Assembly (NCBI GenBank): GCA_002887195.1
Contig: PJAB01000312.1
Coordinates: 1-29,950, forward strand
From: Chrysochromulina parva
Lineage: Eukaryota; Haptophyta; Prymnesiales; Chrysochromulinaceae
Direction of reading: 5' to 3'
DNA: 29,950 nucleotides
Part shown: piece after piece, positions 1,783-26,614 of the stretch
Layout of the letters: every line of letters starts with the position of its first letter
Position numbering within the stretch: position 1 is the stretch's first letter
Program-made: the position numbers and the translations under genes
Notes under the pieces: generated by a model
What the model saw: only the letters and a program-made list of their open reading frames with translations
What the model was told of the DNA's origin: nothing
Databases searched by the model: none

Positions 1783-3504
1783 TCAGTGCAGCACGAACCC
1801 GTCGCCGTACAGGCTAATCAGGTCTCCCGGCGTCAGCACGTCCAGGTCGACCGAGAGCGTGTCGTCTTCGCCCTTACCAGGCACTTCGATGATCGAGAGC
1901 GTGTCGTCCCGAAGCGTGTCGTCTTCGACGTCTCGAAGCCCTTCGAGCATGCCTTCGAGGGACTCGCCGGAGGGCGTCCGGCCTGCCTTCTGGAGGGGCG
2001 GCGCTCGAGGCTGCGCGTGCTCCTCTCCAGAGGCTCCCCTCTCCAGAGGCTCCTCTCCAAAGGCTGCTGGCTCCTCTCTCGGCGCGCTCGAGACGGCGCT
2101 CGGCGGCATCAGTCTCGCGGGCCCCGTGTACCGCGCCGTCGTGAGCGCCATTTGCCTGTGTTGGTGATTCTCCAGGACGAGCGCCGTCGTGAGCGCCATT
2201 GGGATCAACTCGATGGCAGCGGTCACCAGCCCCGTGTGCCGCGTGAGGAACACCACCTGAAGCATGCACTCGAGATAGACATGGTCCTGTGCCTGGCGCA
2301 CGCGCACCGGCTGGTCCAGCGAGCCGCGCACCTGAGGATGGAGGCCACCAGAGGTCGTCAGAGGTCTTCAGAGGTCATCAGAGGTCATCAGAGGCATCGG
2401 AGGTTATCAGAGGTCGTCAGAGGGGATCAGAGGTCATCAGAGGCATCAGAGGTCATCAGAGGTCATCAGAGGTCATCAGAGGGCATCAAAGGTCAACGGT
2501 CCAGCGAGCGGCGCACCATCTCTCCGAGGTCATCCGAGGTCATCAGTGGTCATCAGATGACGGAGGCCATCAGAGCGCGGCGCACCATCTCTCCGAGGTC
2601 ATCAGTGGTCATCAGTGGTCATCAGATGACGGAGGCCATCAGAGCGCGGCGCACCATCTCTCCGCTTCGCCTCACTGCCTGTCCGAAGACGCTCGCTAGG
2701 AGCGGGTACACAACAGGCTGGTCGTCCGGGTGGATGAATAGGGTTAGAGGACTGGTTTTGTTCTGATCGTAGCAACGGCAGAGGGCTTCAACGCTGTACA
2801 TGCCGTGCGCGAATCAGACGCACTCAGTTGCACTCAGTGGCACTCAGTGGCACTCAGTGGCACTCAGTGGCACTCAGTGGCATTCACCTGCACACGCCGA
2901 GCTCGAAGGCCGCGTTGACAAAGAAGTGGTTGGAACCGCTCCGTGTGACCGTGCGCACAAAGCAGTAGCCGCGCGACGCGCTCACAACCTGAAGCATCTC
3001 GAGTGGGTGCGGACTCTCCTGTCGTCCTCCGTCTGAGACCCAGTCGTCTTCCGGCATGGGCGGATCGAGGTCGGTCAACTTGAACCCCCTACTCTCACAG
3101 GTGCGCACGCACTCCATCATGAGGCTGTGCGCGTTGCGACGACGCGCAATCGCCGCAAAGTGCCGCAAGCAGAAGAGCTCCGCCTCTGTGGACTTGGCGG
3201 CACAGACCTCTCGCCAGAAGAGCGCAGTCACGTTGGGGCTTCCGCCAAAAGTCACTTGGCGCACTGATAAGTCAAAGCTGTCCGGCGCTGTGCTGACCAC
3301 GGCCGGCGCCATCGCGGTGTCCGTCTCGGCCCAGGTCGACGCCGTCTGCAACGAGAATTGTGCCATGATTCTCGGTTTCTTGGTTGGCGCCTCCTCGCAG
3401 CGCAAACTGAGACGCTTGCAGCGATCACACGTCTCTCCTGGCCAATAGTGACAGCGGACCTTGGAAGCCTTGCATGCCGTGCACACGTGCGTTGGGGGTG
3501 GCAT
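1783..3504 (-). CDS. Zn(II)2Cys6 binuclear-cluster transcription factor
   Basis: Probable DNA-binding regulator of about 434 aa. Exons are 3504-2888, 2793-2655 and 2331-1783 (phases 2 then 0). The ATG at 3504 puts the zinc cluster at the extreme N-terminus: residues about 8-36 show C-x2-C-x6-C-x7-C-x2-C-x6-C, the full six-cysteine pattern of the fungal-type Zn2Cys6 domain, with basic residues inside the first loop (KASKVR). A basic KKPR follows. The middle region (VSASRGYCFVRTVTRSGSNHFFVNAAFELG, then FIHPDDQPVVYPLLASVFGQAVRRSG) resembles a PAS-like fold, an inference from pattern only. The C-terminal exon is acidic, with three DDTL repeats and a duplicated MALTTA segment, and could be an activation region. 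It is divergent from the methyltransferase gene, 333 bp apart. Zn2Cys6 factors are best known in fungi, so the domain is notable here. Binding site and targets are unknown. Confidence 0.8.
2332..2654 (-). mobile_element. Introner-type intron 2 of the Zn2Cys6 gene, with internal junction copies
   Basis: This 323-bp intron is filled on the sense strand with CTCTGATGACCTCTGATG-type units. The donor GTGCGC repeats the first six bases of exon 3. Exon 2 end sequence plus donor (CGGAGAGATG|GTGCGCCG) recurs near 2590 and 2515. The copy at about 2498-2524 continues for 19 bases into exon 3 sequence with one mismatch, so it reproduces the uninterrupted exon 2-exon 3 junction. The acceptor is CATCCTCAG. 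Confidence 0.75.
2794..2887 (-). mobile_element. Introner-type intron 1 of the Zn2Cys6 gene
   Basis: This 94-bp intron has donor GTGAAT and acceptor ATGTACAG. Its body is a tandem array of the 10-bp unit CCACTGAGTG, present six times in a row on the sense strand. It is a variant unit not seen in the other introns except for CTGAGTGC fragments. Confidence 0.65.
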
Positions 3505-3837
3505 GTGCTCGCAAAAGCTGCAAGGGGCTCGTGTTTGGCGCGACCTCCGAGCGACCTCCGAGCAAGTTCGGTTGTGGGGCGGGCGCGACCTCCGTCGCTC
3601 CGAGCAAGTTTGGTTGCGGGGGGGAACACCGTGCGTACAGTAGTACGCATGTGTGTACCGTCATAGTGTGAAGACTCTGCGTGCAGGTTCGAGTGTTCAT
3701 TTCACGGTCATTCTCAGAAACTTCTGTGCCCCGCGAAAACTTGACAAAACTGACTACTATTGTATGAAAGACGCACCGCCGCCCGCGCCGCGCACCCTCT
3801 CTCGCTCACAGCCGCGCTTCGGCGGGGCGGTCGCAGC
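3505..3837. promoter_or_regulatory. Divergent promoter between regulator and methyltransferase
   Basis: These 333 bp separate two opposite start codons. Between 3540 and 3630 there is a local direct repeat: CGACCTCCGAGCAAGTTCGGTTG-GGG and, about 50 bp later, CGCTCCGAGCAAGTTTGGTTG-GGG, plus an extra CGACCTCCGAG copy. Repeated elements in a shared promoter could be binding sites, possibly for the neighbouring zinc-cluster factor; this is inference. No TATA box could be assigned. Confidence 0.45.
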
Positions 3838-6800
3838 ATGAACGACCATAATGCAAACGAGCTATGCGGAGTACTCTCTGGCGCGTACTGCTTCGCCGAG
3901 CTCGATGTGCGCATCACTGAAGCTCTTGAGCTCGCCGACTGCTGCAATCACATTGGCATCGACCTCGCCCAGCTCGCAGCGCCCTTAGATGCGGCCGCAC
4001 GCGCTGCTGAGGCGGAGGAGGAGACAGCGCAGCCGCATTTGAAGCGCCAGCGCTCGGCCTCTGATGTGGGCGACGTGCTGCCGGGCGAGCGGCGCGCTGT
4101 GCTCGACGTGTCTGCCTTTGATCCGCACACGGCGAGCGCCGTGCTTACCTGCGCAGGACGCTACTGCGCGCTCGTCAACCAGCCCGGGTTGGCGCTGGGC
4201 CACTTCCGTGCAGCGCTCGCGGCGTCGAGCACGGGAGGGCATAGCCCGTCCACCTTCGGCCCGGCCGGCGTGCCTGAGCCCGAGGGCAGCAGCGAGGCCG
4301 AGGCGCACCTGGGGATGGTGCAGTCGGCGCTGCAGCTCGGGCTTCGTGAGCATGCCACCTCCCTCACGATGAGCTTCTGGCGGGGCGGCAGCGCGGGTGG
4401 CGTGGGCTCGTGCTCGCCCGCGTATATCCATCTCGCCTTCCTGCTCGCCGCGCTCAGCGAAGCACTGCCCGCTCCACCACCTGACGCGCTCGCGCTCCTG
4501 CGCCGTCTCACTCCCTTATTAGGGACAGCGGCATGCTCAGCCGTTGAGAGTCTCGCGGCGCGCTGGCTGCCGAGCCAGGTGCCCACGGCGGCGCTCCCCC
4601 CTTCGGCCCGGGTGCCGCCATCACCGCCCTCGCCTCTCACGCTCACGCCCGCGACGGCGCTCCATGCGCCCGCGACGGCGCTCCACGCGCCCGCGACGGC
4701 GCTCCATGCGCCCGCGTACAGCGAGCCGCCGTACGAGAACGTCCTCGCCGAGCCTTTTGTGCAGGCGGCCCTCGCGGGCTCGCGCGCGTTTGGGTCTCGC
4801 TCGCTCGAGACGCTCGCCTGCGCCGCGCGCCGCCGGCTGCTCCACCGGCTGCTCGGGCCGCTAGAGGGGCCACTCGAGGGGCCACTAGAGGGATCACTGG
4901 AGGGGATGGCTGAAGGGTGCGGGGGGGGAGGCGCGGCGGGTCGCCGCCTGCGGAATGCGTCGAGCGCCCACGACGGCGCGGGCAGCGAGGACGAGAGCCA
5001 GATGGCTGTGAACGAGAGCCAGATGGCTGTGAACGAGAGCCAGATGGCTGTGAACGAGAGCCAGATGGCTGTGAACGAGAGCCAGATGGCTGTGATGACC
5101 GATGTGATGGGGGACGACCTCGGCGAGAGCGATGACGAGCGGCAGCTCTTTTTGAGCGGCAGCAGCAGCGGCGCCAGTAACGGCGGCCGCGGCGCGCCGT
5201 GCCGCCTCGCCGCAGCATTTTGGGCGGGGGGTGCCGTCGTGGGCGGCGGCGGCGGCGGCGGCAGCGGCGAGGACTGCGGCGCGCGCCTGCAGCTCATCGA
5301 GGCCGCGGCCGCCGTGGCGTCGTGGGCGTCATTTGCGGACTTTTGCCTCGATGAGACGCCAGCCGAGGGCGCCGTCGTGGCACGCGCTTGCGCAATGCTT
5401 GAGGCCGGTCTCTCGGCGGGTAGCGCCGGTTGGCCCGTCTCGCATGCCCATGAGCTCTCGTTCCTCGTCGCTGCGGCGATGTACCAGGACCTCTCCAAAG
5501 TGCGCCAATGACCTCTGATGACCCCTGATGACCTCGGAGGACCTCGGAGGACCTCAAATGACCTCTGATGACCCCTGATGACCTCGGAGGGGACGAACCC
5601 TCTCTGATTGCCTCTGAGTGCATGCTGATGGCCTCCCTCATTGCATGCAGGTGCGAGCGGTCGAGCTCTGGCTTCGCGACAGCGACGTTGCGGCCGAGAT
5701 GGGGCGGCGGCTGCAAGAGGCTGGGCTGACGCGCACTTGGTCCATGCTCCAAGAGCAGGTGCTCCAGCCTATGACGAACCCTCACATCATATGACGAACC
5801 CTCACATCACATGCTCCAAGAGCAGGTGCGCTGATTGCCTCTGATTGCATGTGATTGCGTCCCTCATCAGAAGGCCCTCCAAGTGCAGGTGCTCCTACCG
5901 TACGCACGCCAGCGTCGTGCCGAGCGGATCGCGGTGCTCACCCCGGTCCACTGCCTCGCGGTGCGTCACCTTCGACTACGTCGAACCATTTGTCGAACAC
6001 TTCCTATGACGAACCCTCACATCCTATGACGAACCCTCACATCCTATGACGAACCCTCACATCCTATGACGAACCCTCACATCATATGACGAACCCTCAC
6101 ATTCTATGACGAACCCTCACATCCTATGACGAACCCTCACATCCTATGACGAACCCTCACAACATATGACGAACCCTCACATCATATGACGCCCATCCAA
6201 AGTGGCACCTCTGAGTGCATGCATGTGACGGATTGATCTCCGCAGGTGCGTGACTTTTACAACGCGACAGTCTACCCCAAATGGCACGAGGCCGAGGTGC
6301 TCGGCTTCCGGAGCGCGCCCTCTTGATGACTTGATTGCATCCAATGAGCCATGATTGCGTCCCTACTCAGGTGTTCGGCATCCGGAGCGCGCCCTCGATC
6401 GCCGAGCGGTTACGTCGTCAGTTTCGTCACTTTCGCTGGCCGCATGGCGAGGACGCGCACCAGCATAGCATGCTCATCGCGGGCTGTGGCTCGGGCCACC
6501 AAGTCGCACAAGCGCTGCTCTCGTATGCTGATTGCATGCTGATTGCATGCTGATTGCATGCTGATTGCGGGCTGTGGCTCGGGCCACCAAATCGCACAAG
6601 CGCTGCTCTCGTACGAGCACGTGTCCATCACAGCCATTTGGATGATTGGCACTGATGAGCCTCTGATGACGTCTGATGGCCTCCCTCCTCAGGTATGACC
6701 ACGTGTCCATCACAGCCATCGACTTGTCGCCTCTCACCCTCGCGTTCGCCCACCACAAGCTGCATGCGCGATGGCCCGAAGAGACCGCGCGCCGCGTGCG

Positions 6801-7857
6801 CTTCTGCGTCGCGGACGTGCTCGCGCTCACGACGGCGCGCCTTCCCCCCGTCGAGCTCGTCTGCTGCATTGGGATGCTGCATCACGTGCCACGGGTGGAC
6901 GTGCCGCGCGCCCTCGAGAAGCTCGCGGGCGCGCTGCTCGAGGGCGGTGTGCTCCAGCTGGGGACCTACTCGACGCTCGGCATTGGCACATGGTACGTTG
7001 ATTGCATGCTGATGGTATGTTGATTGCATGCTGATGGTATGTTGATTGCATGCTGGGGACCTACTCGACGCTCGGCATTGGCACATGGTGGCCTTGCATG
7101 CGACGAACCCTCCCTCTGATTGCCTCTGATTGCATGCTGATGGCCTCCCTCATCGCATGCAGGTGGCCTGGCATGCGACGGCTCCTCCATCGCCTCGCAC
7201 CTGCGATCGTCGACGTGGCAGGCACGCTGCTTCGTCAGGTACGTTGATTGCATGCTGATGGCCTGCCTTGCATGCAAGTGCTCACCACAGCGCGCTCGAT
7301 TGGCCTCGTTTCGTCAGCCCGCACCCCATGAGCTCCGAGAGCTCCGCGCGGCCCTCCTCGCCCTCGGCGCCCAACACGGCGTCCATGGGGACATACACGG
7401 CAGCAGCGGATCGGGTCCCCACAGCGGATCGGGTCCCCACAGCTTGGTGCTCGACGAGGCCGAGAGGCAGGCCATTGAGCACGTGCTCAGCGCTCCGGAG
7501 TTTTACACGGCCACCGGCTGCCGTGACCTCCTGCTGCACCCGTGTGAATGCTCGTTCACAATGCTCGAGCTTCAAACGCTGCTCGAGGGCGCCGGGCTGG
7601 AGCTCGTGGGCGTGTGGTTTCAGAGCCTCGAGGCCGATCGAAAGGCGCGCGCCGCGTACGCGCAGAGCGCTCAATACGGCGCGCTCGGGGGTAGCCTCGC
7701 GCTGGCCGATGCGCCCGACTTGCAGACGGACCTCGCGCGCTGGCATCGGCTTGAGGAGGAGGACCCTACCCTCTTTGGACGCATGCACGTCCTGTTTGCG
7801 CAGAAGCGGTCGCGAGGCGCCGCCGCCAACAGGGCCTTTCGTCACAGCGGGCCATGA
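3838..7857 (+). CDS. SAM-dependent methyltransferase with long helical, TPR-like N-terminal region
   Basis: Predicted methyltransferase of about 986-992 aa. Exons are 3838-5499, 5651-5758, 5889-5960 (or 5871-5960, using an alternative in-phase acceptor), 6246-6296, 6371-6522, 6693-6992, 7163-7238 and 7318-7857. ATG 3838 is the first ATG in frame. Residues 1-554 are Ala/Leu-rich, with helical segments resembling TPR units (about residues 85-220) and low-complexity inserts. The catalytic part shows motif I LIAGCGSGHQ (split by an intron just after it), ITAIDLSPLTLAFA for the acidic SAM-ribose residue, VRFCVADVL, and VELVCCIGMLHHV with the post-motif II pattern, then GGVLQLGTYS. A C-terminal segment (about 180 aa) follows. 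Similar fusions exist in TPR-methyltransferase proteins of bacteria and algae; the substrate is not evident. Seven introns, nearly all repeat-built, crowd the last third of the gene. Confidence 0.82.
4661..4717 (+). repeat. In-frame repeat encoding ATALHAP
   Basis: Three copies of a 21-bp unit encode ATALHAP in the disordered, Pro/Ala-rich part of the methyltransferase exon 1. A related short array encoding LEGP/LEGS follows at about 4858-4905. Both keep the reading frame. Confidence 0.75.
4993..5097 (+). repeat. 21-bp in-frame minisatellite encoding ESQMAVN
   Basis: Five near-perfect copies of GAGAGCCAGATGGCTGTGAAC give (ESQMAVN)5 at about residues 386-420 of the methyltransferase; the last copy diverges into VMTD. 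Copy number probably varies between strains without breaking the frame. Confidence 0.9.
5500..5650 (+). mobile_element. Introner-type intron 1 of the methyltransferase gene
   Basis: Donor GTGCGC matches the start of exon 2 (GTGCGA). The body is built from GACCTCTGATGACCCCTGATG and GACCTCGGAGG units. The 3' end TGATGGCCTCCCTCATTGCATGCAG has the pyrimidine-rich element terminus. Confidence 0.75.
5759..5888 (+). mobile_element. Introner-type intron 2 of the methyltransferase gene
   Basis: Donor GTGCTCC equals the exon 3 start GTGCTCC at 5889. Two TATGACGAACCCTCACATC units follow. A copy of the exon 2 end (ATGCTCCAAGAGCAGGTGC, about 5812-5829) sits inside. An alternative acceptor, CTCATCAG at 5870, would add KALQVQ in frame. 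Confidence 0.65.
5961..6245 (+). mobile_element. Intron 3 of the methyltransferase gene with 20-bp minisatellite
   Basis: The 285-bp intron is dominated by about nine to ten tandem copies of the 20-bp unit TATGACGAACCCTCACATCC at about 6005-6190. The donor GTGCGTCAC nearly equals the exon 4 start GTGCGTGAC. The acceptor is GATCTCCGCAG. Confidence 0.75.
6297..6370 (+). mobile_element. Introner-type intron 4 with a 26-bp exon duplication
   Basis: The first 26 bases of this 74-bp intron (6297-6322) match the first 26 bases of exon 5 (6371-6396) with two mismatches. The rest carries TTGATGACTTGATTGC-type sequence and the acceptor TTGCGTCCCTACTCAG. The 5' splice site is therefore a copy of downstream coding sequence. 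Confidence 0.8.
6523..6692 (+). mobile_element. Introner-type intron 5 containing a copy of the intact exon junction
   Basis: After donor GTATGC come CTGATTGCATG units (11-bp period). At 6567-6637 a copy of the last 44 bases of exon 5 runs directly into a copy of the first 27 bases of exon 6 (matching 6479-6522 and 6693-6719 with few mismatches). Then CTCTGATGACGTCTGATGGCC units and acceptor CTCCCTCCTCAG follow. Confidence 0.8.
6993..7162 (+). mobile_element. Introner-type intron 6 containing a copy of the intact exon junction
   Basis: Donor GTACGT is followed by TTGATTGCATGCTGATGGTATG units. At 7052-7105 the end of exon 6 (6957-6992) runs directly into the start of exon 7 (7163-7180), again as an uninterrupted junction. 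Then CTCTGATTGC units and the acceptor CTCATCGCATGCAG follow. It has the same architecture as intron 5 of this gene. Confidence 0.8.
7239..7317 (+). mobile_element. Introner-type intron 7 of the methyltransferase gene
   Basis: This 79-bp intron has donor GTACGTTGATTGCATGCTGATGGCC. Its acceptor TTTCGTCAG repeats the exon 7 end CTTCGTCAG, so the 3' splice site may be a copy of upstream exon sequence. Confidence 0.65.
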
Positions 7858-15154: not shown

Positions 15155-18100
15155 TCACGCAGTATACGGATCTAGGGCCGCCGGCTCGATGGCAGAGCGA
15201 GAGAGCGTCGCGCGCTTCAGTTCACGCTGACGAGAGAGCTCGCGCTCGGTGTGCCCTTTCTCGGCGGCGGCGCTCCTCCGCCCGAGAAAAGACATGTCGA
15301 ATGTACCGGTACGTATCTTGAGGAACGAGCCGTCGCTCGGCTGCTCTGTGGAGGAGCCAGCCTTGTTTCGATTCTCAAACTCGGCGAGCAGGCCGTTGGC
15401 CGCGAGGCCACGTTTGAGGTGCATCATGATCGAGGCCTTGGTGAACTTGTCCGAGGTCGATCCGGTGACGCGCTTCATCTTTTTAATTGAGTCGAGGTAT
15501 TTTGGGTGCATATGCATCAGCTTGGCCATGATCTGCTCCTCATGCACCACGCCCGTGAGCCGCTGCAAGAGAGCGAGGAGCACCTCGAGGAAGTGCACAG
15601 TTCCGTCTCGGTCGGGCGCATCGAGGTCGACGAGGATGCCCTCCATTTGCTCGAGATTGGGCGGCACCTGTCGTGGCTTCGTCAAGCCGTAGAAGGAGCC
15701 CTCGCCCACTTCCAGCTGCACTCCCACGAGCGGCGGCTTGCAGGTGTACCTGACGAGGGAGGCAAGCAGCGCTCATCAGTGGCCGAGCACTCAGGAGCGG
15801 CGGCATGCATGCATGCATACAGCAGCAGCCCCAGGTCGATGGGGCGCTTGCAAGCACTCAGGAGCGGCGGCATGCATGCATGCATACAGCAGCAGCCCCA
15901 GGTCGATGGTGCGCATGTACGACGTGTTCTCCCGGTCGAACTCGAGCCATTTGCGCTGAAAAGACTCGATGTCCTCGAACTTGATCGAGATACCCTCCTC
16001 GTAATTCGAGGTCGCGTACGAGTCTTGCACGATGGCCACGAACATGGCGATGAGCACCCAAGCCACGAATGCGATGTAGGCGATGAAGAAGACGGCAACT
16101 GCCGAGTCAGGTGGCCGGGTCTCGATGCGCGCGACGTGCGGGTTGTTCAGCGCGTCGGCGAGCATCGCACCCCAGGCGTCGCCCGTTGCCATGCGGAAGA
16201 GGGCCGAAAAGGCGCGAAACGCAGTCTCGAAGTTGGCGTGGCGCGACAGTCCGTCCCCTTCGTGGTCGTAGATGATGGTGCCGAGCAGGACCATCCCAAA
16301 GTGCGCGTACGAGAAGGTGAGGATGAAGATCCACGCGGAGGTGTAGAGGATGGAGGGGACCGCAAAGATGATGGTACGCAGTAGTTTGAGTAGCGAGGGC
16401 GACATCCCCGCGAGGCGCACCTGTGGGGAGAGAGAGGCAATCAGAGGTCATCAGAGGTCATCAGAGGTCATCAGAAGGGATCAGAGGACATCAGAGGCCA
16501 TCCCCGCGAGACGCACGATGCGGATCGCCCGGAAGCAGCGCAGCCAGCGCATCGCCGGATCGTCCTTCAAATTGTATCCATCGAGCACCGCAAAGGCGAT
16601 GATGGTGACGAAGGAGAAAATGACCGAGACCACGGCTAGCACGAAGTCCAGCCGGTTCCACGGATTCCTCCAATACTCGATGAAGGTGAGTGCGCCGATG
16701 CGGACCTAATGAGGGGAGCCATCAACGAGATCATCAGAGGCAATCACAGAGAGACTATCAGAGGCACTCAAAGACCATCAGGGTGCTGGGAGACCACACG
16801 CGCACCATCGCCTCGATCGCGAACAGTGCGACGAAGCCGTAGTCCAGCAGCTCATAGATCTGGAGCACGGTGCGATTGATCGGGTCGGAATAGAGCGTGA
16901 GCGCGACCACGTTGAGGCAGATGCACACGCTCACGGTCCGGTCGAACGCCTTGCCATGGAACCGCGCCGTATCGGGCGCGTTCACAGGCCTGCCGAGCTT
17001 CTCTTCATCGTGAATGAGTCGGAAGCACACGCGCCGATACGGCGCGGTGGGCGGCGGCTCCAGGTGGCTCCTCTTCTCTGGCTGGAGGCGAAGGATGAGT
17101 CGCTGCGTCTTGAGCCACGTCATCTGATCGTTGGTGAGCAGCGCCGAGCCGTCGTAGATTCGCTTAATACCCTCAAGCTCGGAGATGATGATGGCCGTGA
17201 AGACGCTCACGGACAGCCAGACGCCGAAGACGATGAAGAGGATGAAGTAGAGGGCCGGGATGAAGGTGGATGCCTCGCGGGCAGGCTGCGTCTCGACTGC
17301 AATGTAGTCGCCGGTAAGGTAGAGAATGTTGGCCCATCCGTCGAGGGTAGAGATCTGATGAGTGAGGCAATCGTAGGACATGAGGGGCACTCACACTGAT
17401 GAGTGAGGCAATCGGAGGACATGAGGGGCACTCACACTGATGAGTGAGGCAATCGAAGGACATGAGCGGCACTCATACTGATGAGTGAGGCAATCGGAGG
17501 ACATGAGCGGCACTCATACAGGCACTCATGAAGGGCCAGCCGTCGCCAGCGAGTACCTGGAAGAGTACAGGCAATGAGGGAGGCAATCAGCGAGTACCTG
17601 GAAGAGGGCGAGGAGCGCCATGGGCAGCGAGTCGAAGTTCGGGAAGGAGCGCGTCCATAGAAGCTCGGCCCCGTCGGCGGCGATAAACACGCTGCACTCG
17701 CGCCGCTCCCCGGTCCACTGGCAGCCGCATTGTGTCGAGTTGGTCTCGCCGGGCACAACGAGCGCGGGCGGCGGCAGAGGCCAGCGCGCGTACCGGCACT
17801 TGGTCGCGTCCGTGTAAAGGACGGAACCCTCCCCCCACACACCTTCCCCCACACCGCAGCCGGGGATGCCGAGGGTCGCGTTGAGGTGGGCACATTGACT
17901 CGTGCCTCCTCCGAACAGCTCGACGCCTACGAGCGCAAAGGTGAGCCAGACGGGTCAGGTGATCGCCTGATGAGAGAGGCCATCCGACGCAATCAGATGC
18001 ACTCAGATGCACTCAGACCTATGAGCGCAAAGATGAGCCAGCCGGTCAGGAGCAGGATGAGCGCGATGAGCACGTTCGGCAACGAGCGAGCGATGGACTC

Positions 18101-21100
18101 AGAGATGTGCTTGAGCTCGTTGAATCTAGAGAAGAGCATTAAGGCCCGCAAGGAGGTAAGGGCTCCGAATATGCGCTGGTTGAAAGTGATCACATCGGTG
18201 TTATTCAGCGGGTTGAAGAGGGCCAACAGCAAGCAGATGAGATCGAGCATGTACCTGGGGCACCACGCAATCAAGGGGGGTCATCAGTGAGGTCATCAGT
18301 GTCATCAAGGCCAACAGCAAGCAGGCCACATCGAGCATGTACCACGGCTGCTTGAGGAATGCCAAGGGGCCCTGTGTCATCATCTTGATGACGAGTCCGC
18401 CGCACGTCAACAGCATGAAGGTCACGTCTAGTCCGGACCGCACCTGCCATATTAGGGAGTATCACCATATTAGGGAAGGACGACCATATTAGGGAGGGCG
18501 TCTAATCCGGAGCGAGGGCGCACCGATGGGGGAGTGAGGGCCGGGGAAGAAAGTGAGGGCGCGCCGCTGAGCAGGCGCCAGTGCCTGATCATGCCATCGA
18601 TCTCCGAGGTGATCGCGAGCGAGGACGAGATGATGAGCGTCACCTGATGAGGGAGGCAATCAAGGGCGTCCTCAAGTATCATCAGCGGCCATCAGAGGAT
18701 CGAGAAGATGAGCGTCACCTGATGAGGGAGGCAATCAAGGGCGTCCTCAAGTATCAGCGGCCATCAGAGGATCGAGAAGACGAGCGTCACCTCGAAGCAC
18801 CAGAACGTGTTCGAGAACACTATCCGCTGCAGATTGCGTGCGTGCTCCTCGCCCAGCCCGTCCTGTCCGAATTTCCCCAGTGGCGGCAGCCGGTCGAGGT
18901 AGACGGTGCGCAGCCAATCGCCCGCCGCACGCACGCGCACCATGAGCAAGGTATACATGCGCCCGGCTAGAGGGCCGCTCTTGCGTTGATGACGCCGGAG
19001 CTCGATGTTCGTCTTCAACTGTTTGCCCAATGCGTCGCTTCGGACTTTCTGAGGGTCGAGATCGTCGTTACGCTTGATGGACATGAACATGAGGAACTCA
19101 TGCTGCGAGATGAGGTCGTCTACCGTCGAAGACTTGTCCAGTACCTGCACTCGGAGACGACCAGAGTTGGGACTATTTGCGGTCAGAGACGATCAGAGGC
19201 GATCAGATGCGATCAGAGGCGATCAGATGCGATCAGAGGCGATCAGAGGCGATCAGAGGCGATCAGAGGCGATCAGAGGCGATCAGAGGCGATCAGAGGA
19301 AATTGGACGCGATCAGACGCACTCCGAGGGGCAATCAGAGGGGCAATCATAGGGGCCATCATAGGGGCCATCAGAGGGGCCATCAGAGGGGGCATCAAAG
19401 GCCATCAGAGGCACTCCGAGAGGCAATGACGCACCTCCCACGTGGCCTCATTCTTGGGCTCTTCTCCGAGCTCGGCGAGGAGGCGATACACTTGGCTGCA
19501 GGTGATGTACCCGTCACCGTCCAAATCCGCGCGCTGGAAGGTATCCTTAAAGTACGCGATCTCCCACACGTTGAGTGATCCATAATCGGAAGCGTGCATG
19601 CGCATGCGCGAGCGACGCAACTTGCGCTGAATGCGCTCCCCTTTGCACCTGTGGGGAACATCGGGCGCCGTGGTGAGCACATGCATGCTGAGGGTCGGCG
19701 CACATGCTCTCCCCTTTGCACCTGCGCATCCACTTCTTCTTCTGGGCAGACAGGTAGCGCCTCTGCTCCGTTCGAACCCAGCCCCGATCACTGATCTGGA
19801 CTCGCACAAAGGGGGGCAGCAGCCGAAAGAGGCTGCGGGCCCAAGGGCCGAATGGCTCATTGCCCTTCACGCCGTGTGGAAGCTTTGCCCAATGCGGTAG
19901 GCGAGGGGGGGCAGCGCCGGATGCCACCACGGCATCGTGCGCTTCGATGACGCCGCGGTCGTCGGCATCGCCGTCATCGGCATCGCCGTCTTCCTCAATG
20001 TTGCGCTTGGGCTCACCATCGTCCAAACTGTTGCGCGAGGGCGCGCGCTCGTCCAACCGAGCTTGTAACGAATCTCTCTGTTTCAAGTTCTCTTCCTTCG
20101 GAGCCACCCAGGTGCCTCCCACGTCCATCCGTCCGGTGGCAGCATCCAGAGTCGGGGATCGCTGTCCACGTGCCAGAGGGGACCACCTACCAGAGCCAGA
20201 GGATGGGGAGGGCGAACGCGTGCGCCGCGCCTCGAGGTCGGCGAGCTTCCGCGCCTCTTCTTTAGTCTCCTTGCGCAGGCGCGCCTTGCGATTCAGCGGG
20301 GGTGGCCTGGCTGGAGCCTTCGTCGATTCCCTTTTGGGCCTCGCCGATCCTCGCTTGGGAGGTTGCCGGCCGGAGTCGTCGGGTCCCTTGATCCGTAAGA
20401 TCTGTGTGTCTGTGTTTTGGGCATATGACCCGGAGGAGTGCGAGAAGCGCGCCGCCTTGACATCGGCGTCGCGCTGTGCTTTGAGTGCGTGGCGATCCTT
20501 ACGCTGCTGCTCCTCCTCCTGTGCCAGCCTGGCGGCAGTCTCTTGGTTCACTTTGGAGGCGATCTGCTTTGCCATCGACGAGAACGTAGAGAGCAGGATG
20601 GAAAGGAACATATTGACCATCACAAAGTTGCCCGAGATGACTACCGCTGGGAAGAAGATGAAGGCGAGGGGGCCCGAGACGAGATATGTGTCCCACATCA
20701 CCCGGCTCCACACGTCCTGCGTGACCGTCTGGAAGACGCTCACGATCGAGATGAGCAGGAAGTCGAAGTGATGACGTGGCTTGAGCGCGCATGAATCCGT
20801 GTGCAGCTGGGTGGAGTTGGCACCATCGGCGTATGGAAGACACCGACCGCCGGCATACACGTCGTCGTACATGCCCGAGTACAGGTGCATGCCAAGGATG
20901 GCGATGAGGAAGATCCATATGACGAGCGCCACCAACATCCAAGCGACCGCGACGAGCGACGCGTAAATTTGGTCGAGGAGCGCGGTCGTGCCACTCAACT
21001 CTGAGAGCGAATAAAGTAATTTGTGGAGGCGCAGCAGCCGAAAGGACTTGAGCGACGAGAGGACTTGATTCTCCAATTCGAGCCCGGTGAACCACGAAAC

Positions 21101-24100
21101 CACCTCGAAGAACCAAACGACCACCAGGAGACCTTCGAAGACGAAGGACGGCGTCGTGGCGTACGTGCGCAGGCCGAACACGTAGATCCTAAGCAACATC
21201 TCGAGGAGGAAATAGATGCCAAAGAGATGGCCAATGATCCAGATGCGGTACGCCTCGTCGCCGCGTCCAAAGCGTTCATCGACGAAGGGGCCATCGAAAG
21301 CGCTCACGACGGCGTTCGCGAGGACGACGAAGAACGCGAGCGCCCGGAACGACGCCGAGACGAGCACCTTGCGCAATTTCAGTCGCGGGCCGCTCAGCCC
21401 GAGCACGGCGACAAACTCGTTGAAGCTGATCTCACCGCTACCATCCTTGTCGCACGCGTCGATGAATGACAGAAATTGCTGCTTGTCCATCGTCAGGTGT
21501 AACCTCTCGTAGGCGTCCTCAAGTTCTTCCTCGGTCAGGAGGCCGTCGCCGTTCTTGTCGATGGTTTCGAACGCTTTTTTCAACGAGCCCACTGCTTCGA
21601 GGATCCCAGCTTCCGCCTCCTTCGCCACATTCTTGATGTGCCTCACCTCACCTTTCGCATCCTTCGGCGTCGGCAACCTTCGCCCGTTGATTTGGGCAGT
21701 GGCGCGTGGATCCTTAGGGATAGGCAGGCCGGTGATGATCGACTTGATGCGTGCGACGATCCGGTGGTCACGGAGGGTGGGGCGGAGGTACCTATCGAAG
21801 TTCTCCTTCAGCCGATCGTAACTGAGCCAATCGAGCACGTGGGTCGCATCCGCTTCCCTGCGCTTCAGCCTCTGCAACTGATGCAGCTTTTCACGTTCGT
21901 ATGCTGTCCCGAGCACCGCGATGAACACGTTCATCAGTACCCAGGAGCCGATGGCGTACATGATGATGAAGACTGATTCCCAGGCGGCGCCCTGCGTGTC
22001 AACCACCAAGTTCTGCATAATCGACCAGTCGACGCCACACCAAATCTGGAAGACGGAGAGGACGGCCAGCGGGAAGTTATCGAAGCTGGGCTGGTACGGC
22101 GGGTTGGCATACCACGTGATAGGCTTGACCTCGTCAGCTGAGAGCCCTTTGCGCTCGTAATACGGCGTGAGTGCGAGGATGTCCCGCCCTCCCGTGCGCA
22201 AGCTCGCATGCTCGCCCGTACCCGAGTCGACGCACGTCGCGTTGGCGCGCGTGCACTGGCGGCCGATGGACTGGATGGAAGAGCAGACGAGGTAGGGCGA
22301 CTCATAGAACACGCCTTCGTGCGTGTCGTAGCATCGGAATCGCAACTTGGCCGAGAGAAGGCTGGTGAGGAAGAGACCGAACAAGAAGGTGAAGAAGGTG
22401 ATGATCATCAGCGTGCTCCCCAAGTCGTATGCCTGTGAAGAGAGAGAGAGGCGATCCACGGTCATCAGAGGCAATCCGATGGCAATCCGATGGCAATCCG
22501 ATGGTAATCAGATGGCAATCCGATGGCACTCAGAGGGCACTCAGAGGGCACTCAGATGGCACTCAGATGGCACTCAGATGGCAATCAGATGGCACTCCGA
22601 TGGCAATCCGATGGCAAGTAAAACTCCCACATCGCGCACCGCATACAACGTCGAGTTAATGATGATGCGCAGCCCGGGAATGGATTCGAGCACACGAAGC
22701 GGCCGCAGCACGCGCAGAATGCGCAAGTTGGTCACCGCGCCGGCGAATTGATTCCCCATCACGACCTCTACAATCAAGGCGGCCCAGCTCCCAACCACGA
22801 TGGTGCCATCGAGGATGTTCCACTTCTCAGCCAAGTACACGCGGCCGAGCCCCACCACCTTGATGACCATCTCGAAGGTGAAGAAGATGTTGAGCAACCA
22901 GTCAACCGTATCGTACAAATCATCACGAGCGGGGTCGGGTGGAAAGGGTTCGGGGTACCTGCGACGAAATCCATTGATGACGTTGTCAGAATACCTCCGA
23001 GGGCAATCAGACGCACATGAGCGACGTACTCAGTCGCAAGGAAATACGCGCTCATGAGCACCGCTCCCAGCACAGTGTTGCGGAAGGCCCAGTGGCGCTG
23101 CATCCGAAAGCACCAAAGGCCGATGGTGCCCCAGCACCGGCCCAACCGTGCGAACATCGACGACCCGCCATTCCCTCGTCGAGCTGCGAGCCACGCCGCT
23201 TCGATCGATTCCGAGCGTTTGGCCCGGTCAAGTGATCGTTCACGTGACCGTTCACGTGACCGTTCACGTGATTCCGAGCGCTGCAGCGGAGCTGCGGGGC
23301 CGCCGCTAGACTCCTCTCGCGGGTGCGCCTGCAATGAGCTCGCGTTGGTGCCCGTCTCGGCGCGCTCGCTTCCGCGCGTGAGCACCTCGGGGCTGAAGCT
23401 CGCACTCTTCTTCTCCTTTCCAAGCGCTGGCGCCGTGCCTGGCGCCGTGCCGTGCTCCCGTGCGGCGTCCTCCACCGAGGCCGAGCGCTCCTCACGGCGC
23501 TCGCCACCACTGAGCGCATGCTGCTGTAGCCGCGCCGCCCGCTCCAGAGCATGTCTGTCCCTCTCCGAGCGTGCCACCAATTTGAACTTGCCGTCCGCGC
23601 CGATGACGAAATCCATCTCCTCCTCGAGTGCGTCGGCCTCGTTGGCACGTTTCCAACTATCACGCGCCGGCTTGGCCGCCCCTGCCTCCCCTTCGAGCGG
23701 GCGGTCGAAAGATGCGCCGTGTTGAGCGAGACCAAAAGAGACTGACCGCTTGCCGCCCGCGCCGCCGGGGCCGCCCGCGCCGCCGGGGCCGCCGCGGGGG
23801 CTCGTCTCATCTTCGGTATCCGTGCCGACGGCTTCCTTGAGCCTCGACAGGTCGATCTCAATGAACTTGTGCACGAACTCCTTGAGTACGAGCTCAAGGA
23901 ACTCGTGCCGGTCGAGGAGATGGTTGCCGTCCGTGTCGTACTTACTGTGGAGCTCGGTGACCTTTTTGGCGCTGGCGTCGAACCCCAGCTGGAGCAGCAT
24001 GGGCTGCAGCTCCGCGACATCGAGAAAGCCGTCGCCGTCGGTGTCGAAGCGCTGGAAGAGCCGATTCGCCCGGAATCGGGTTTCGTTCTCGACGGCGAGA

Positions 24101-24648
24101 TCGCCACGATTCGGTGGGATCATCATGACACGCCCACCCTTGAGCGCTCGCTCGCTCGGTGGTGGCGAGTCGAGCAGCTCGGGATTCAGAACGCGCGGTG
24201 AGAACGAGGCGCGCCGGGAATCTGCGGCCGCCGCCAACGATGCCGACGCCGACCCCGACGCCGACGCGCCACCGTTGTTGTCGCTTCTCGCATCTGCCGT
24301 GCCGCTGCTGCTGCGGCGGCGACGCGGTCGGCCTTCGACACCATCGCCGTCCTGCCGCTTGCGCCGCCGCTTACCGCCGCCATCCCCGCCATCCCCAGCA
24401 TGCTGCTGCTGCCGCCGATGACGCCGTCCCTGCTCAGGGGAGCTCGTGGTGCCACTGCGAGTGCGGCTTCCGTTTCCGCGGCCGCCGCCATCGACGCTCC
24501 GGCCTCGCCCACTATCCACGCTGCTGCTCCAACGGACCTCTGCGCTGCGGCTGCGCATCTCGCCTCCGCCCGTGGTGCGCCCACCCTCGATGCTGCGGCT
24601 GCGGTCGCCGTCACGAGAAGCATCTGACGCCTTCACGAGGGAGGCCAT
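15155..24648 (-). CDS. Four-domain voltage-gated cation channel with EF-hands
   Basis: Pore-forming channel subunit of about 2,622 aa, related to CaV/NaV channels. Exons: 24648-23030, 22958-22640, 22432-19722, 19648-19435, 19144-18791, 18643-18524, 18443-18343, 18254-18019, 17926-17598, 17354-16806, 16705-16517, 16420-15888, 15749-15155; all phases agree. Residues 1-500 are charged and disordered, with two EF-hands at about 200-245 (DTDGDGFLDVAE, DTDGNHLLDRHE). Domain I spans about 520-840, with S4 LRILRVLRPLRVLESIPGLR. Two EF-hands lie at 935-985, domain II at 1005-1265 (weak S4), and another EF-hand near 1590 (DLDGDGYITCSQ). Domains III (1735-2060) and IV (2100-2390, S4 RWLRCFRAIRIVR) follow, then an EF-like C-terminal helix pair. 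Filter residues two before the pore Trp read V (CGVDW), D (TQDVW), D (TLDGW), D (TGDAW). A Ca2+- or Na+-conducting plasma-membrane channel with Ca2+ feedback is inferred. Confidence 0.88.
15750..15887 (-). mobile_element. Channel intron 12 with 57-bp tandem duplication
   Basis: Two identical 57-bp copies lie at 15786-15842 and 15853-15909. The second covers the last 22 bases of the exon plus the donor, so the intron contains a full copy of its own 5' exon-intron boundary. The intron start resembles the next exon start (GCCGCCGCTC shared). The acceptor is TTGCCTCCCTCGTCAG. Confidence 0.8.
16421..16516 (-). mobile_element. Channel intron 11, introner-type with 18-bp duplication
   Basis: The intron begins with GTGCGTCTCGCGGGGATG and the next exon with GTGCGCCTCGCGGGGATG: 18 bp with one mismatch. 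The body is CTCTGATGTCCTCTGATCC and CCTCTGATGA units. The acceptor is CTCTCCCCACAG. The site falls in S4 of domain IV. Confidence 0.85.
16706..16805 (-). mobile_element. Channel intron 10, introner-type, diverged
   Basis: Sense strand: donor GTGCGCGTGTGG against exon start GTCCGCATCGGC, a weakened duplication. The body has CCTCTGATAG, TTGCCTCTGATGATC and the acceptor CTCCCCTCATTAG. Splicing restores AIEAMVRIGALTFIEYWRNPW across S2-S3 of domain IV. Confidence 0.65.
17355..17597 (-). mobile_element. Channel intron 9: 41-bp tandem array plus internal pore-like segment
   Basis: Donor GTACTCGCTG recurs at 17556 after an internal CTCTTCCAG, a copy of the exon end. The segment 17556-17526 encodes VLAGDGWPFM. 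Four 41-bp units follow (17355-17518 on the plus strand), each containing the element terminus GATTGCCTCACTCATCAG and so each ending in a potential acceptor. Confidence 0.75.
17927..18018 (-). mobile_element. Channel intron 8 with acceptor copied from upstream exon
   Basis: Donor GTCTGAGTGC, CTGAGTGCAT and TTGCGTCGGATGG units, then the terminus CTCTCATCAG. The last 23 bases of the intron (17949-17927) copy the last 23 bases of exon 8 (18041-18019) with two mismatches, so the actual 3' splice site TAG is the duplicated exon end. Confidence 0.7.
18255..18342 (-). mobile_element. Channel intron 7, introner-type with 34-bp duplication
   Basis: The first 34 bases of the intron match the first 34 bases of exon 8 (start GTACATGCTCGAT) with four mismatches. 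The rest holds CACTGATGACCTCACTGATG and the acceptor GTGGTGCCCCAG. It interrupts S3 of domain III. Confidence 0.85.
18444..18523 (-). mobile_element. Channel intron 6 with TCCCTAATATGG repeats
   Basis: The 80-bp intron starts with GTGCGCCCTCGCTCCGGATTAGACG-like sequence, resembling the exon 7 start GTGCGGTCCGGACTAGACG with a short indel. Its filler differs from the others: three copies of TCCCTAATATGG, each holding a CTAAT branch-point match. The acceptor is ATATGGCAG. Confidence 0.7.
18644..18790 (-). mobile_element. Channel intron 5: two tandem introner copies
   Basis: Two nearly identical units of about 72-75 bp lie in tandem, each starting GTGACGCTC(G/A)TCTTCTCG and ending GATTGCCTCCCTCATCAG. 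The unit start is a copy of the exon 6 start GTGACGCTCATCATCTCG. The internal junction CATCAG|GTGACG is both acceptor and donor. Confidence 0.85.
19145..19434 (-). mobile_element. Channel intron 4 with GCCTCTGATC 10-bp array
   Basis: This 290-bp intron has donor GTGCGT and acceptor CCGAGTGCAG. About twelve copies of the 10-bp unit GCCTCTGATC (plus strand GATCAGAGGC/GATCAGATGC) lie at about 19190-19300. Further GGCCCCTCTGATG units lie to 19420. Confidence 0.75.
19649..19721 (-). mobile_element. Channel intron 3 with 13-bp exon duplication
   Basis: Intron start GTGCAAAGGGGAG equals the exon 4 start exactly (13 bp). The 73-bp body lacks the CTCTGATG units. The acceptor is GTTCCCCACAG. Confidence 0.75.
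22433..22639 (-). mobile_element. Channel intron 2 with GATTGCCATCG/GAGTGCCATCT array
   Basis: The 207-bp intron lies between TLYA and AYDLGS in the domain I S4-S5 linker. The donor is GTGCGC and the acceptor CTCTCTTCACAG. The body is a tandem array of 10-11-bp units (plus strand ATGGCAATCCG, ATGGCACTCAG, AGGGCACTCAG). Confidence 0.7.
22959..23029 (-). other. Channel intron 1, short GT-AG intron
   Basis: This 71-bp intron has donor GTACGT and acceptor GTCGCAG. It restores LATEYPEPFPPDPARDDLYDTVDWLL between S1 and S2 of domain I. Only GTAC is shared with the next exon start, with a CTGATTGCC trace inside; it may be an old, decayed element. Confidence 0.6.
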
Positions 24649-24787: not shown

Positions 24788-26614
24788 ATGTCCTCTCCCG
24801 ACGCGCCCACGCCCGCTCCCAGGCCTCCCTCAGAGACGGAGTCAGCGCCCGCCGCCCCGACGTCCAAGGTTGATTTCACGACGCTCTCGGACGAGGAGCT
24901 TGCCGCTCTCGTCGTCGCCGGCACGGTGGCGCCGCACAGTCTCGAGGCAGACCTTGGGAACTGCGCGCGCGCCGTGCGAGTGCGGCGGGCCTGGCTCGAG
25001 CGCTCGATGGGCGTGGGGGTCGGCACGCTGCCTCACGATGTGCTCGACTGCGAGGCCTTTTACAGCAGCGTGAAAGGCGCATGCGCGGAGATGGTCGTTG
25101 GCTTCGTGCCGCTGCCTGTGGGCGTGGCCGGTCCGCTGCTGCTCAACGGGAAGTCGTACCAGGTGCCCATGGCGACGGTCGAGGGCACGCTGATCGCCTC
25201 CACACGGCGCGGCTGCAAGGCCATCACCGAGTCGGGCGGCGCCCAGGCGGCCGTGCTGCAGCAGGGCATGACGCGCGCACCGGTGCTGCAGTTTCCGAGC
25301 GCGATGCGGGCCGTGGCGTTCAAGCAGTGGCTAGAGGATCCGGTGCATTTCGAGGAGGCGAAGGCGCAGTTCGAGTCGACCACGCGCTTCGGCAAGCTCC
25401 TCTCGGTCAAGGTGACCGTCGCCGGCCGCTTTGCCTACGCTCGCTTCATGTGTGCCACTGGCGACGCGATGGGAATGAACATGGTCTCCAAGGTGCAGCG
25501 AGTCTCCGGATCGCATTTGTATTGCCTCGGAGTGCTGCTGAGTGCTGCTGAGCGCCCCGGAGTGCTGCTGAGTGCCTCGGAGTGCTGATGAGTGCTGATG
25601 AGTGCTGATGCGTGCCTCTGGGTGCCTCTGGGTGCCTCTGGATGCCTCTGGATGCCTCTGGATGCTTCTGGATGCTTATGAGAGTGCTGCTCGACATCGC
25701 CGTCCTGTCCTAGGGAGTGAACGCGGTACTCGAGCACCTCGCAGCCACCGACTTCCCCGACTCGGAGGCACTCGGCCTGAGCGGCAACCTATGCTGCGAT
25801 AAGAAGCCCGCCGCGATTAATTGGATCCAGGTGCGTGATTGCACTTGATTGCTCTTGATGGCTCCTGATTGCTCTTGATGGCCTCTGATAGCCGCCGCTA
25901 TGAATTGGATCCAGGGACGAGGCTGCTCTGTGGTGGTCGAAGCGACCATCTCCGGCGCCATCGTCTCAAAGGTCCTCAAGACGACCGTTGCGGGCGTGTG
26001 CGAGCTCAACCTAGCCAAGAACCTGGTTGGCTCGGCGATGGCGGGCATGTCCGCGGGCGGCTTCAACGCACACGCGGCCAATCTCGTCACCGCGGTCTTC
26101 CTCGCCTGCGGCCAGGACCCCGCTCAGAATGTCGAGTCGTCCAACTGCATCACGCAGCTCACGCCCGTCAACGGCGGCGCGGACCTGCACATCTCGTGCA
26201 CGATGCCATCGATTGAGGTGGGCACCTTGATTGCATCGGATGGCCTCTGACGGCCTCCCTCCTCAGGTGGGCACCTTGATTGCATCTGATGGCCTCTAAT
26301 TGCGTCCCGCATCAGGTGGGCACTGTCGGCGGAGGAACCCACCTCGCGGCGCAGAAGGCGTGTCTGAACTTGCTCGGGGTCGCGGGCTCTGCCGACGCCT
26401 CGCCGGGTGCGCATGCACGCCAGCGACCTCTGATGACCTCTGATGACCTCTGATGACCTCTGATGACCTCTAATTGCGTCCCTCATCAGGTGCGCATGCA
26501 CGCCAGCTGGCCATGGTCGTCGCGGCCACCGTCATGGCAGGAGAACTCTCCCTCCTTTCCGCCCTCTCGGCTGGGCATCTCGTTAAGGCCCACATGGCCC
26601 TCAACCGAAAGTGA
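24788..26614 (+). CDS. 3-hydroxy-3-methylglutaryl-CoA reductase, class I, no membrane anchor
   Basis: Converts HMG-CoA to mevalonate with two NADPH, the committed step of the mevalonate pathway. It is 446 aa, from exons 24788-25492, 25714-25830, 25915-26217, 26316-26406 and 26490-26614. Family motifs are complete: [25 protein letters not shown] with catalytic Glu132, [20 protein letters not shown] with Lys265, GQDPAQN with Asp342, GTVGGGT, and HLVKAHM with His440. The first 35 residues are Pro/Ala/Ser-rich, with no membrane helices or sterol-sensing domain, so the enzyme is predicted soluble unless an upstream exon exists. The chain ends at LNRK, so the serine that AMP-activated kinase phosphorylates in animals is absent. 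It is head-to-head with the channel gene. All four introns carry the repeats. Identification is very secure. Confidence 0.95.
25493..25713 (+). mobile_element. HMG-CoA reductase intron 1, tandem-unit intron
   Basis: The 221-bp intron has donor GTGCAG and acceptor CCTGTCCTAG. The body holds GAGTGCTGCT, GAGTGCTGAT and GTGCCTCTGG/ATGCCTCTGG units, about 10 bp each. Splicing restores [16 protein letters not shown]. Confidence 0.75.
25831..25914 (+). mobile_element. HMG-CoA reductase intron 2 with acceptor copied from upstream exon
   Basis: The last 21 bases of the intron (25894-25914) match the last 21 bases of exon 2 (25810-25830) with two mismatches, including the CAG used as acceptor. In between are TTGATTGCTC, TTGATGGCTC and CTCTGATAG units. 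Confidence 0.8.
26218..26315 (+). mobile_element. HMG-CoA reductase intron 3, two tandem introner copies
   Basis: GTGGGCAC occurs at 26218, 26266 and 26316 (the exon 4 start). The first two are followed by the same CTTGATTGCATC sequence. The units end in CTCCCTCCTCAG and GTCCCGCATCAG. The internal CAG|GTGGGC is a potential ratchet site. CTCTAAT near the end is a good branch-point match. Confidence 0.8.
26407..26489 (+). mobile_element. HMG-CoA reductase intron 4 with perfect 18-bp exon duplication
   Basis: GTGCGCATGCACGCCAGC at 26407-26424 is identical to the exon 5 start at 26490-26507. Between them are four to five perfect GACCTCTGAT units, then CTCTAATTGCGTCCCTCATCAG-type terminal sequence. 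This is the cleanest example in the window and probably among the youngest. Confidence 0.9.

Follow-up and report, generated by a model that had tools for sequence, protein, structure and literature searches.

Families of introns that appear to have spread into new genes of the haptophyte Chrysochromulina parva, duplicating a variable stretch of neighbouring exon

We analysed a stretch of 29,950 nucleotides of Chrysochromulina parva (contig PJAB01000312.1 of assembly GCA_002887195.1; contig C312 in our set, hereafter the window), in which genes for a regulator, a methyltransferase, a kinase, a channel and an HMG-CoA reductase (HMGR) carry introns made of similar repeated units. Judging from the sequence, the families to which these introns belong appear to have colonised further genes, and every insertion seems to have copied a short piece of the exon beside it, of no constant length. 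We lean towards reading them as mobile spliceosomal introns, introner-like in kind, which would insert with a flank duplication of variable length (D) around the incoming copy (E), D later travelling along as a passenger. Whether the moving unit is DNA or spliced-out RNA, and how new spliceosomal introns originate, is a long-standing question. Passenger exon fragments pair a donor with a recipient, make the boundaries of the moving unit readable and allow RNA and DNA models to be compared; in this way, exon fragments carried by introns could make the origin of new introns traceable.

The units of the first family (family 1) were scored as CTGATG, TGATTGC, GAGTGC, CTAATTGC and CTGATTG. At least two of them occur in 22 of the 25 curated introns of the window, in agreement with the initial annotation, which had counted about 22 or more of 26 and proposed an introner family that built most introns of these five genes. 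The three others are 5961-6245 (one unit and a 20-bp repeat with GACGAACCCTCACATC), 18444-18523 (CCCTAATATGG repeats) and 19649-19721, which belongs to a second family. The units cover 21.2% of the intron bases of the window in sense orientation and 1.5% in antisense (slightly different ends were used in this run for three of the 25 introns), and around 0.4% per strand outside introns. Therefore, the sense orientation reported initially is borne out, and the possibility that the motif might be equally common outside introns does not hold at the level of the window. Furthermore, TTGCSTCCCTCATCAG matched 14 times with 2 mismatches or fewer, where 0.09 matches were expected, and CTCTGATG had 34 matches against 1.55 expected. 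The array can be read as repeated CTGAT/CTAAT units resembling what we take to be the branch-point consensus, their number being free to vary.

The genome-wide search for the terminal motif that the initial annotation had called for (45.07 Mb in 2,199 contigs) gave 1,010 exact copies (545 + 465), 632 of them in the longer form CTRATTGCSTCCCTCATCAG, and none for the reversed control. In 34 loci fetched with this motif all 49 exact copies of family 1 were in sense orientation and within predicted introns; as the loci were selected by the motif, this indicates where exact copies sit and not the share of introns having it. Together with the 753 exact copies of the core of the second family, these are similar introns at non-homologous positions of many unrelated genes, as introners are in the broad sense. 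The window is actually a hot spot: in 200 kb taken at fixed places from 20 other contigs, sense units cover only 2.9% of the predicted intron bases, and 4 of the 64 predicted introns of at least 40 nt in a random sample belong to family 1. Hence the proposal that the family built most introns stands for the five genes and fails for the genome. Likewise, the term introner family was right as to a dispersed, intron-making sequence (unrelated genes, many motif copies, sense intronic sites) and incomplete, because it left out the flank duplications, which can be seen in the very introns described then (e.g. 6297-6322 = 6371-6396), the second, non-repetitive family present in the channel gene and the passenger fragments elsewhere in the genome. 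These three features tell more about the mechanism than the array does.

Regarding the flank duplications, a copy of the adjoining exon at the junction with a score of at least 12 was found in 14 of the 25 window introns and in none of 600 mispaired intron-flank pairs; copies of at least 16 nt at a score of at least 11 were present in 15 of the 25. In a larger set of 68 family introns (23 from the window, 41 from motif loci and 4 from the random sample), 37 had a copy at a score of at least 12; among 408 mispaired pairs there was none, and among 60 other introns there were 2. Lowering the score to 9 gave 40, 5 and 5, respectively. The two exceptions among the other introns were an intron of the second family (L012) and a 13-nt G+C-rich match (L019). 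The 68-intron count predates the addition of 18444 and 19649 and the correction of 18255, so that the count on 25 introns is the corrected one, and the score thresholds were picked after the first cases had been seen, alternative thresholds being computed too. A search anchored on the motif, at a score of at least 11, gave copies at 37 of 56 family 1 sites, some of which are tandem-unit repeats, and at 13 of 18 sites of family 2, while chimeric controls gave 14 in 578; it added L035, L045 and L051, where the gene model had masked the copy. When 150 nt of flanking exon were searched unanchored in 41 introns, exon position 0 was the start of 15 of the 18 best downstream copies, position 2 that of one, and two started elsewhere; of the 13 best upstream copies, 8 ended at the junction, one at 2 and four elsewhere.

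One might think that a tandem duplication of exon sequence around AGGT alone creates such introns, and D does often open with a good donor GT. This process needs no insert, yet inserts of dispersed families lie between the copies, in the window cases as well as in the motif-anchored ones (the latter having been found by the insert itself), and we consider it extremely improbable.

For measuring D we kept 32 clean duplications of both families, leaving out sites that scored below 11 or were followed within 70 nt by family units; according to the motif-anchored controls, about one of the 32 could be due to chance. Their length was 11-40 nt (median 20.5) with 17 different lengths, therefore there is no fixed target-site duplication (TSD). 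In 13 of them the two copies are still identical, which suggests recent activity and agrees with the initial view of an active or recent family. The insert measured 35-77 nt in 28 of the 32 cases, so the description of the body as a simple-sequence array and not a fixed-length element was only half correct: array length does vary, on top of an insert of rather limited size.

DNA transposases leave target duplications of constant length within a family, and the spread of D just described is at odds with a short, constant TSD. Non-autonomous DNA transposons of the kind of miniature inverted-repeat transposable elements (MITEs), which have been reported as introners in other algae, would explain dispersed families and a splice site co-opted from the target duplication, both reported in the available text of PMC9860276. 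Terminal inverted repeats (TIRs) were not found here, the ends matching at 3.34 of 14 positions against 3.56 of 14 for mispaired ends, although some introner families in that text also do without them, and the moving unit contains passenger exon fragments; a MITE-like origin is thus improbable.

The duplications come in two arrangements. In the commoner one the start of the downstream exon is duplicated; here the donor GT lies in the exon copy and the acceptor in the insert. The reverse division holds where the end of the upstream exon is duplicated, with a donor from the insert and an acceptor from the exon copy (17927-18018, HMGR intron 2, L043 and L046). In three of these four introns (all except L046) an unused AG still ends the insert, by eye and with a gapped alignment of the exon copy in two of the three, which would fit the arrival of a complete intron. 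The intron start GTGCGATCTCCCTTGAT, exactly from the GT on, is common to L024 and L043, which are on different contigs. Both arrangements are nested in a single intron at 6523-6692, 6993-7162 and L053, and tandem [D E] units are found at L032, L039, L046 and L052. As for the donors themselves, the exon at L030:456-545 and around L063:200-380 is restored exactly only if the intron is of the GA-AG type, with GAACG or GAGAG as donor, and a GC donor fits L051. Rare donors may be in use.

The second family (family 2), of the form GCATGCAHGTGCTCACCACGGCGC..TTCCCCACAG, lacks the simple-repeat character of family 1. Exact copies of its 15-nt core number 753 in the genome, against 1 for the reversed control. 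In 20 loci fetched with the core, 26 of 27 sites were sense: 16 lay in predicted introns, 8 in predicted exons in sense orientation and 2 outside predicted genes, and the remaining one was antisense in an exon. By eye, some of the non-intronic sites are plain coding matches (L056, L059, L067) and others reflect poor gene models. In the intronic copies, too, the duplications are long and differ in length (37 nt at L055, 30 nt at L012), and the 5' end of the insert is not constant. Since two unlike sequences have the mode of insertion in common, we argue for a general mechanism rather than for the transposase of one element. In a virus collection, the family 1 motif was present in 0 records and the family 2 core in one, IMGVR_UViG_3300027760_000958 of IMG/VR (L075), near its end. 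The neighbouring sequence looks bacterial or phage-like by eye, pointing to a chimeric assembly or to haptophyte DNA, and at L075:4200-4554 there are GACGAACCCT repeats resembling those of window intron 5961-6245.

Six candidate passenger segments were searched genome-wide and relatives were found for two. In the first of these (set B), contig C1194 (L078) has an intron in a gene with a PDZ domain according to Pfam, with D = GTGAGCTGAGCAGCGGAGATGTCATC followed by GATTGGTGGAGGTCGCTGATTGC..CATCAG. The intron in C1486 (L079), whose host gene has no match in Pfam, contains a D of its own, followed by GGAGATGTCATC and next by the GATTGGTGGAGGTCGCTGATTGC..CATCAG insert. This 12-nt GGAGATGTCATC is PDZ-domain exon at L078, where it closes D beside the same insert; it is absent from the exon of C1486 and, in 611 kb of fetched sequence on both strands, occurs only at L078 and L079. 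The 12-mer alone would be expected several times in the genome, so what counts is its joint occurrence with a rare insert: GATTGGTGGAGGTCG has four copies genome-wide, only at L078, L079 and L039, the last one on C48 in a ubiquitin hydrolase gene, where the insert follows a different D. In set A, the 22-nt TCCGATCTCCCTCCGAGCCACT lies right after the intron end in C1167 (L077), in what we read by eye as an exon skipped by the gene finder; in C798 (L076) it lies within an intron, from its GT onward, and in the anthranilate synthase gene of C1 (L001) it is a passenger shortened at the 5' side. In both sets the moving unit lies between a GT and an AG and is shortened at its 5' side only, as would be expected if excised intron RNA were reverse transcribed from the 3' end; none of these copies extends upstream of the GT of the presumed donor or beyond its AG. 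These sets suggest that the intron itself moves, perhaps through RNA.

Regarding the same loci, the exon after the intron at G000:C798:10488-10586 (L076) has GTCCGATCTC in common with the passenger, which looks as though a 10-nt match had guided the choice of landing site, and around L077:480-700 there is an intron of repeated TCTGATTGCCTCCCTCATCAG-like units, i.e. a multiplied 3' end. Donors within the same gene were also considered and found no support: the best partner was in the same gene in 5 of 35 cases against 2.5 expected (k=9), and 353 of 500 permutations reached the observed value (k=11).

The growth of minisatellites in ordinary old introns, with arrays becoming alike through slippage and common splicing signals, would account for the plentiful arrays of 10-11 bp units, in which the unit may resemble a branch-point sequence. 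Nevertheless, it cannot yield identical 16-20-mers at hundreds of sites, and it does not give exon-flank copies, a non-repetitive family with the same flanks, or passengers. The evidence speaks against it as the sole cause, which we regard as very improbable, and minisatellite growth stays as a secondary process.

Under the mechanism that we favour, a copy of an existing intron (E) would enter an exon, usually just before a GT, and E would end up flanked by two direct copies of 11-40 nt of the adjoining exon (D). If E lacks its own 5' end, the first copy of D would become the new donor GT and E would supply the acceptor (...CTRATTGCSTCCCTCATCAG or ...TTCCCCACAG), splicing restoring the old exon exactly; if the GT of E is still present, the acceptor could come from the upstream exon in its second copy. 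D would then be the 5' part of the new intron and would be recopied with it, often shortened at the 5' side, as a passenger from the former gene, and repeated [D E] units would arise by later local tandem duplication. We infer that the copied molecule would be the excised intron RNA, reverse transcribed from its 3' end at a staggered nick, as in target-primed reverse transcription. In a variant of this scheme, the reverse transcriptase would switch from pre-mRNA to the intron RNA template and return, and the cDNA would then recombine, which would account as well for the sampled copies of family 1 being only sense and only in genes. We put forward tentatively, as possible and not as probable, the stronger form of this proposal, in which excised spliceosomal introns were retrotransposed via RNA into new exons with duplications of variable length and keep a readable, directional genealogy, e.g. 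from the PDZ-domain gene of C1194 to the gene of C1486.

The main alternative is template switching or repair of staggered breaks at the DNA level, where a polymerase copies part of an intron as filler between duplicated flanks and there is no RNA step. The variable D agrees with it, as do the short overlaps at the D-E joint seen by eye (e.g. CTC, CTG, CTGAT, CTTG) and the local tandem duplications (L041, L044), and some nested introns, whose inserts end inside the array, fit it better. On the other hand, it predicts inserts that cross the AG or GT of the donor, of which there are none in the two passenger sets (very few cases), and intergenic or antisense copies, of which there are none among the 49 exact family 1 sites (few and motif-fetched); furthermore, no clear excess of similarity was seen among introns of the same gene. 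We therefore take this alternative as rather unlikely, while giving it serious weight.

Several observations weigh against mobile introns of the kind we favour. As many as 31 of the 68 family introns have no flank copy at score 12, and the control of the motif-anchored search is above zero at score 11. The nested introns 6523, 6993, L037 and L047 have inserts ending within the array and not at the AG, and 3' ends differ among the window introns. Moreover, the constant 3' end of E is by construction in the family 1 loci, which were fetched with the motif, and acceptor selection would give the same, for which reason we lowered slightly the odds of the RNA-based reading; in family 2, CCACAG follows within 40 nt of the core at just 14 of the 27 sites. 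A cruder strand measure, the coding score of the 120 nt after the site, was sense in 49 of 56 family 1 sites and 15 of 18 family 2 sites. Splice sites were predicted by a home-made gene finder. Four of the genome-wide passenger searches (L046, L058, window 18644-18781 and HMGR intron 1) found no parent for the candidate passenger, one giving a second match at 2 mismatches that was equalled by one match of the reversed control. Set A is weaker than set B because the C1167 exon was read by eye and the C798 target exon itself holds GTCCGATCTC, 10 nt in common with the passenger. Finally, no autonomous partner was found in two inspected places of the 5 with a reverse transcriptase (RVT_1) in the genome; neither has the 3' end of either family, and one holds CTGATTGCC.

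Target-primed reverse transcription of long and short interspersed nuclear elements (LINEs and SINEs) produces 5' truncation, variable target duplications and short overlaps at the 5' joint. The introns described here resemble these elements in their target duplications of variable length, their 5' shortening and their short joint overlaps; the 5' ends of the inserts vary as well, and a constant 3' end is by construction in the loci fetched with the motif, is seen at 14 of 27 family 2 sites and could equally come from acceptor selection. In contrast, what moves here would be a spliceosomal intron whose limits are its own splice sites, and its sampled copies are sense and in genes.

Chrysochromulina, the genus of the alga studied, is a haptophyte of the order Prymnesiales. 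In the available text of Gozashti et al. 2022 (PMC9860276), introners have TSDs of 3-9 bp and/or TIRs, with other families having neither, and those of a Chrysochromulina sp. metagenome-assembled genome are shown with TSDs of 4 bp and without TIRs, the 5' splice site being the one carried along. Our introns are like them in occurring in unrelated genes and in carrying one splice site while the other comes from the duplicated target, and differ in the long, variable D and in the passengers from former genes. According to the same text low-complexity families were removed by hand, therefore family 1 might have been filtered out there. The introner elements of Amoebophrya, as presented in the accessible part of PMC7789003, have direct repeats of 3-5 nt, inverted repeats of 8-20 nt and mostly non-canonical introns; direct repeats across exon/intron borders and repeated introns are common to both cases, whereas our models are GT-AG (some GC, possibly GA donors) and lack inverted repeats. 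For 213 introns, Rogers and Bendich 2025 (PMC11782384) reported repeats close to the borders, 4-30 bp long and 11.4 bp on average, and tied them to insertion; unlike here, in the available portion of that article they are not linked to a dispersed intron family or to traced donors. A 2025 paper on mirusviruses (PMC12768974) gives, in the part at hand, candidate viral introners without match to a known set. Fungal introners lack TSDs and are explained by reverse splicing in the text available of PMC9860276; in them and in stwintrons, as here, mobility is attributed to the intron itself, and the long duplications are what sets our case apart. Insertion by reverse splicing, for which no target duplication is expected, is not supported for the 37 of the 68 family introns that have flank copies. 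Passenger exon fragments or long variable duplications in introners were not found reported in our literature searches, which were not aimed at passenger fragments and covered few subscription papers. Our case is filed as introner-like and not as a MITE-type introner, the plan of introners being in common and the fixed short duplication not.

The gene models were rebuilt with a self-trained gene finder, with the window and the sampled loci as training set; some sampled regions were chosen partly for motif clustering, and another set consisted of one region per contig. Introns shorter than 30 nt (40 nt in the random sample) and low-score exons were dropped before the counts, as were spurious low-complexity predictions at 24311, 20307 and 20028 in the channel gene. 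The methyltransferase, the kinase, the channel and, once hand splicing was added, HMGR were recovered as long proteins. Pfam confirmed the domains of the methyltransferase and the kinase; the channel and the regulator are putative names, from reading by eye and from the initial annotation. The hand-spliced HMGR is a protein of 446 amino acids whose alignment with 9 homologues is continuous across the four junctions, except for a one-residue gap (P0024, beside the fourth junction); it resembles haptophyte proteins, the best match with an organism label being that of Haptolina brevifila (Prymnesiales), at 77%. Reading frames and this alignment are compatible with splicing, and we infer that the introns are spliced as modelled. 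Four boundaries were set by hand (18255-18342, 15750-15887, 19649-19721 and 5759-5888); the first came out of a scan for GT-started repeats, which is too noisy in coding repeats to stand alone. All 25 introns are listed in the table.

Table. Predicted introns of the window, with their composition and exon-flank copies
Intron	Coordinates	Strand	Composition and flank copy
Regulator	2332..2895	-	CTCTGATGAC arrays; 2498-2516 = first 19 nt of downstream exon (2313-2331), 18/19
Methyltransferase	5500..5650	+	CTCTGATGACC array; flank match of 5 nt only
Methyltransferase	5759..5888	+	Acceptor 5888 chosen by hand (gene finder: 5870); 5810-5825 = upstream exon end 5743-5758, 16/16
Methyltransferase	5961..6245	+	Mainly 20-bp repeat with ATGACGAACCCTCACATC; no flank copy at score >=8
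Methyltransferase, single unit	6297..6370	+	Exon copy 6297-6322 = 6371-6396 (24/26), then insert 6323-6370 ending TTGCGTCCCTACTCAG
Methyltransferase, reads as two nested insertions	6523..6692	+	Array; 6567-6610 = upstream exon 6479-6522 (43/44); 6611-6637 = downstream exon 6693-6719 (25/27); second insert
Methyltransferase, architecture as 6523..6692	6993..7162	+	7052-7087 = 6957-6992 (36/36); 7088-7105 = 7163-7180 (17/18)
Methyltransferase	7239..7317	+	TTGATTGCATGCTGATGG + CTTGCATGCAAGTGCTCACCAC, incomplete match to family 2 core; flank match 8 nt
Kinase	12337..12510	-	12390-12406 = downstream exon 12318-12334 (16/17)
Channel, hand boundary	15750..15887	-	Upstream exon end CCATCGACCTGGGGCTGCTGCT (22 nt) recurs inside
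Channel	16421..16516	-	16499-16516 = downstream exon 16403-16420 (17/18)
Channel	16706..16799	-	Family 1 units; no flank copy at score >=8
Channel	17355..17597	-	Four 41-bp units ending TTGCCTCACTCATCAG; flank match 9 nt
Channel	17927..18018	-	Acceptor from upstream exon copy (17927-17953 = 18019-18045, 24/27); insert retains unused CATCAG
Channel	18255..18342	-	18309-18342 = downstream exon 18221-18254 (30/34); gene finder donor had been 18315
Channel	18444..18523	-	CCCTAATATGG repeats; downstream exon start copied over 16 nt, score 11
Channel	18644..18781	-	Two units, each opening with downstream exon copy (18701-18718 = 18626-18643, 17/18); alternative donor 18790
Channel	19145..19434	-	CTCTGATCGC array; no flank copy at score >=8
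Channel, family 2	19649..19721	-	CATGTGCTCACCACGGCGCCC..TTCCCCACAG; 19704-19721 = downstream exon 19631-19648 (17/18)
Channel	22433..22630	-	11-bp array; no flank copy at score >=8
Channel	22959..23029	-	Two units; no flank copy at score >=8
HMGR intron 1	25493..25713	+	GAGTGCTGCT/TGCCTCTGGA array; no flank copy at score >=8
HMGR intron 2	25831..25914	+	25892-25914 = upstream exon end 25808-25830 (21/23), acceptor supplied by copy
HMGR intron 3	26218..26315	+	Two 49-bp units, each opening GTGGGCAC = downstream exon start 26316-26323 (8 nt only)
HMGR intron 4	26407..26489	+	Exon copy 26407-26424 = 26490-26507 (18/18, GTGCGCATGCACGCCAGC), then array, then TTGCGTCCCTCATCAG

Other repeats were seen in the window. 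A 21-bp unit is repeated five times, unchanged, at 4991-5095, within the coding region of the methyltransferase. At 27158-27346, adjoining a gene read as ankyrin-repeat, there are five 39-bp units TTAGTCAAGGAGCTCCTCACGTCTTCAATCGGTACATGT, a tandem array of a different kind. In the intergenic stretch 28870-28960, CACCGGTTGNCGCGTCTGTCGTGTTAACGTT is also present at two places in L014 and GGTGTGTGTATTCTGA in L020, which may represent a dispersed intergenic element or motif.

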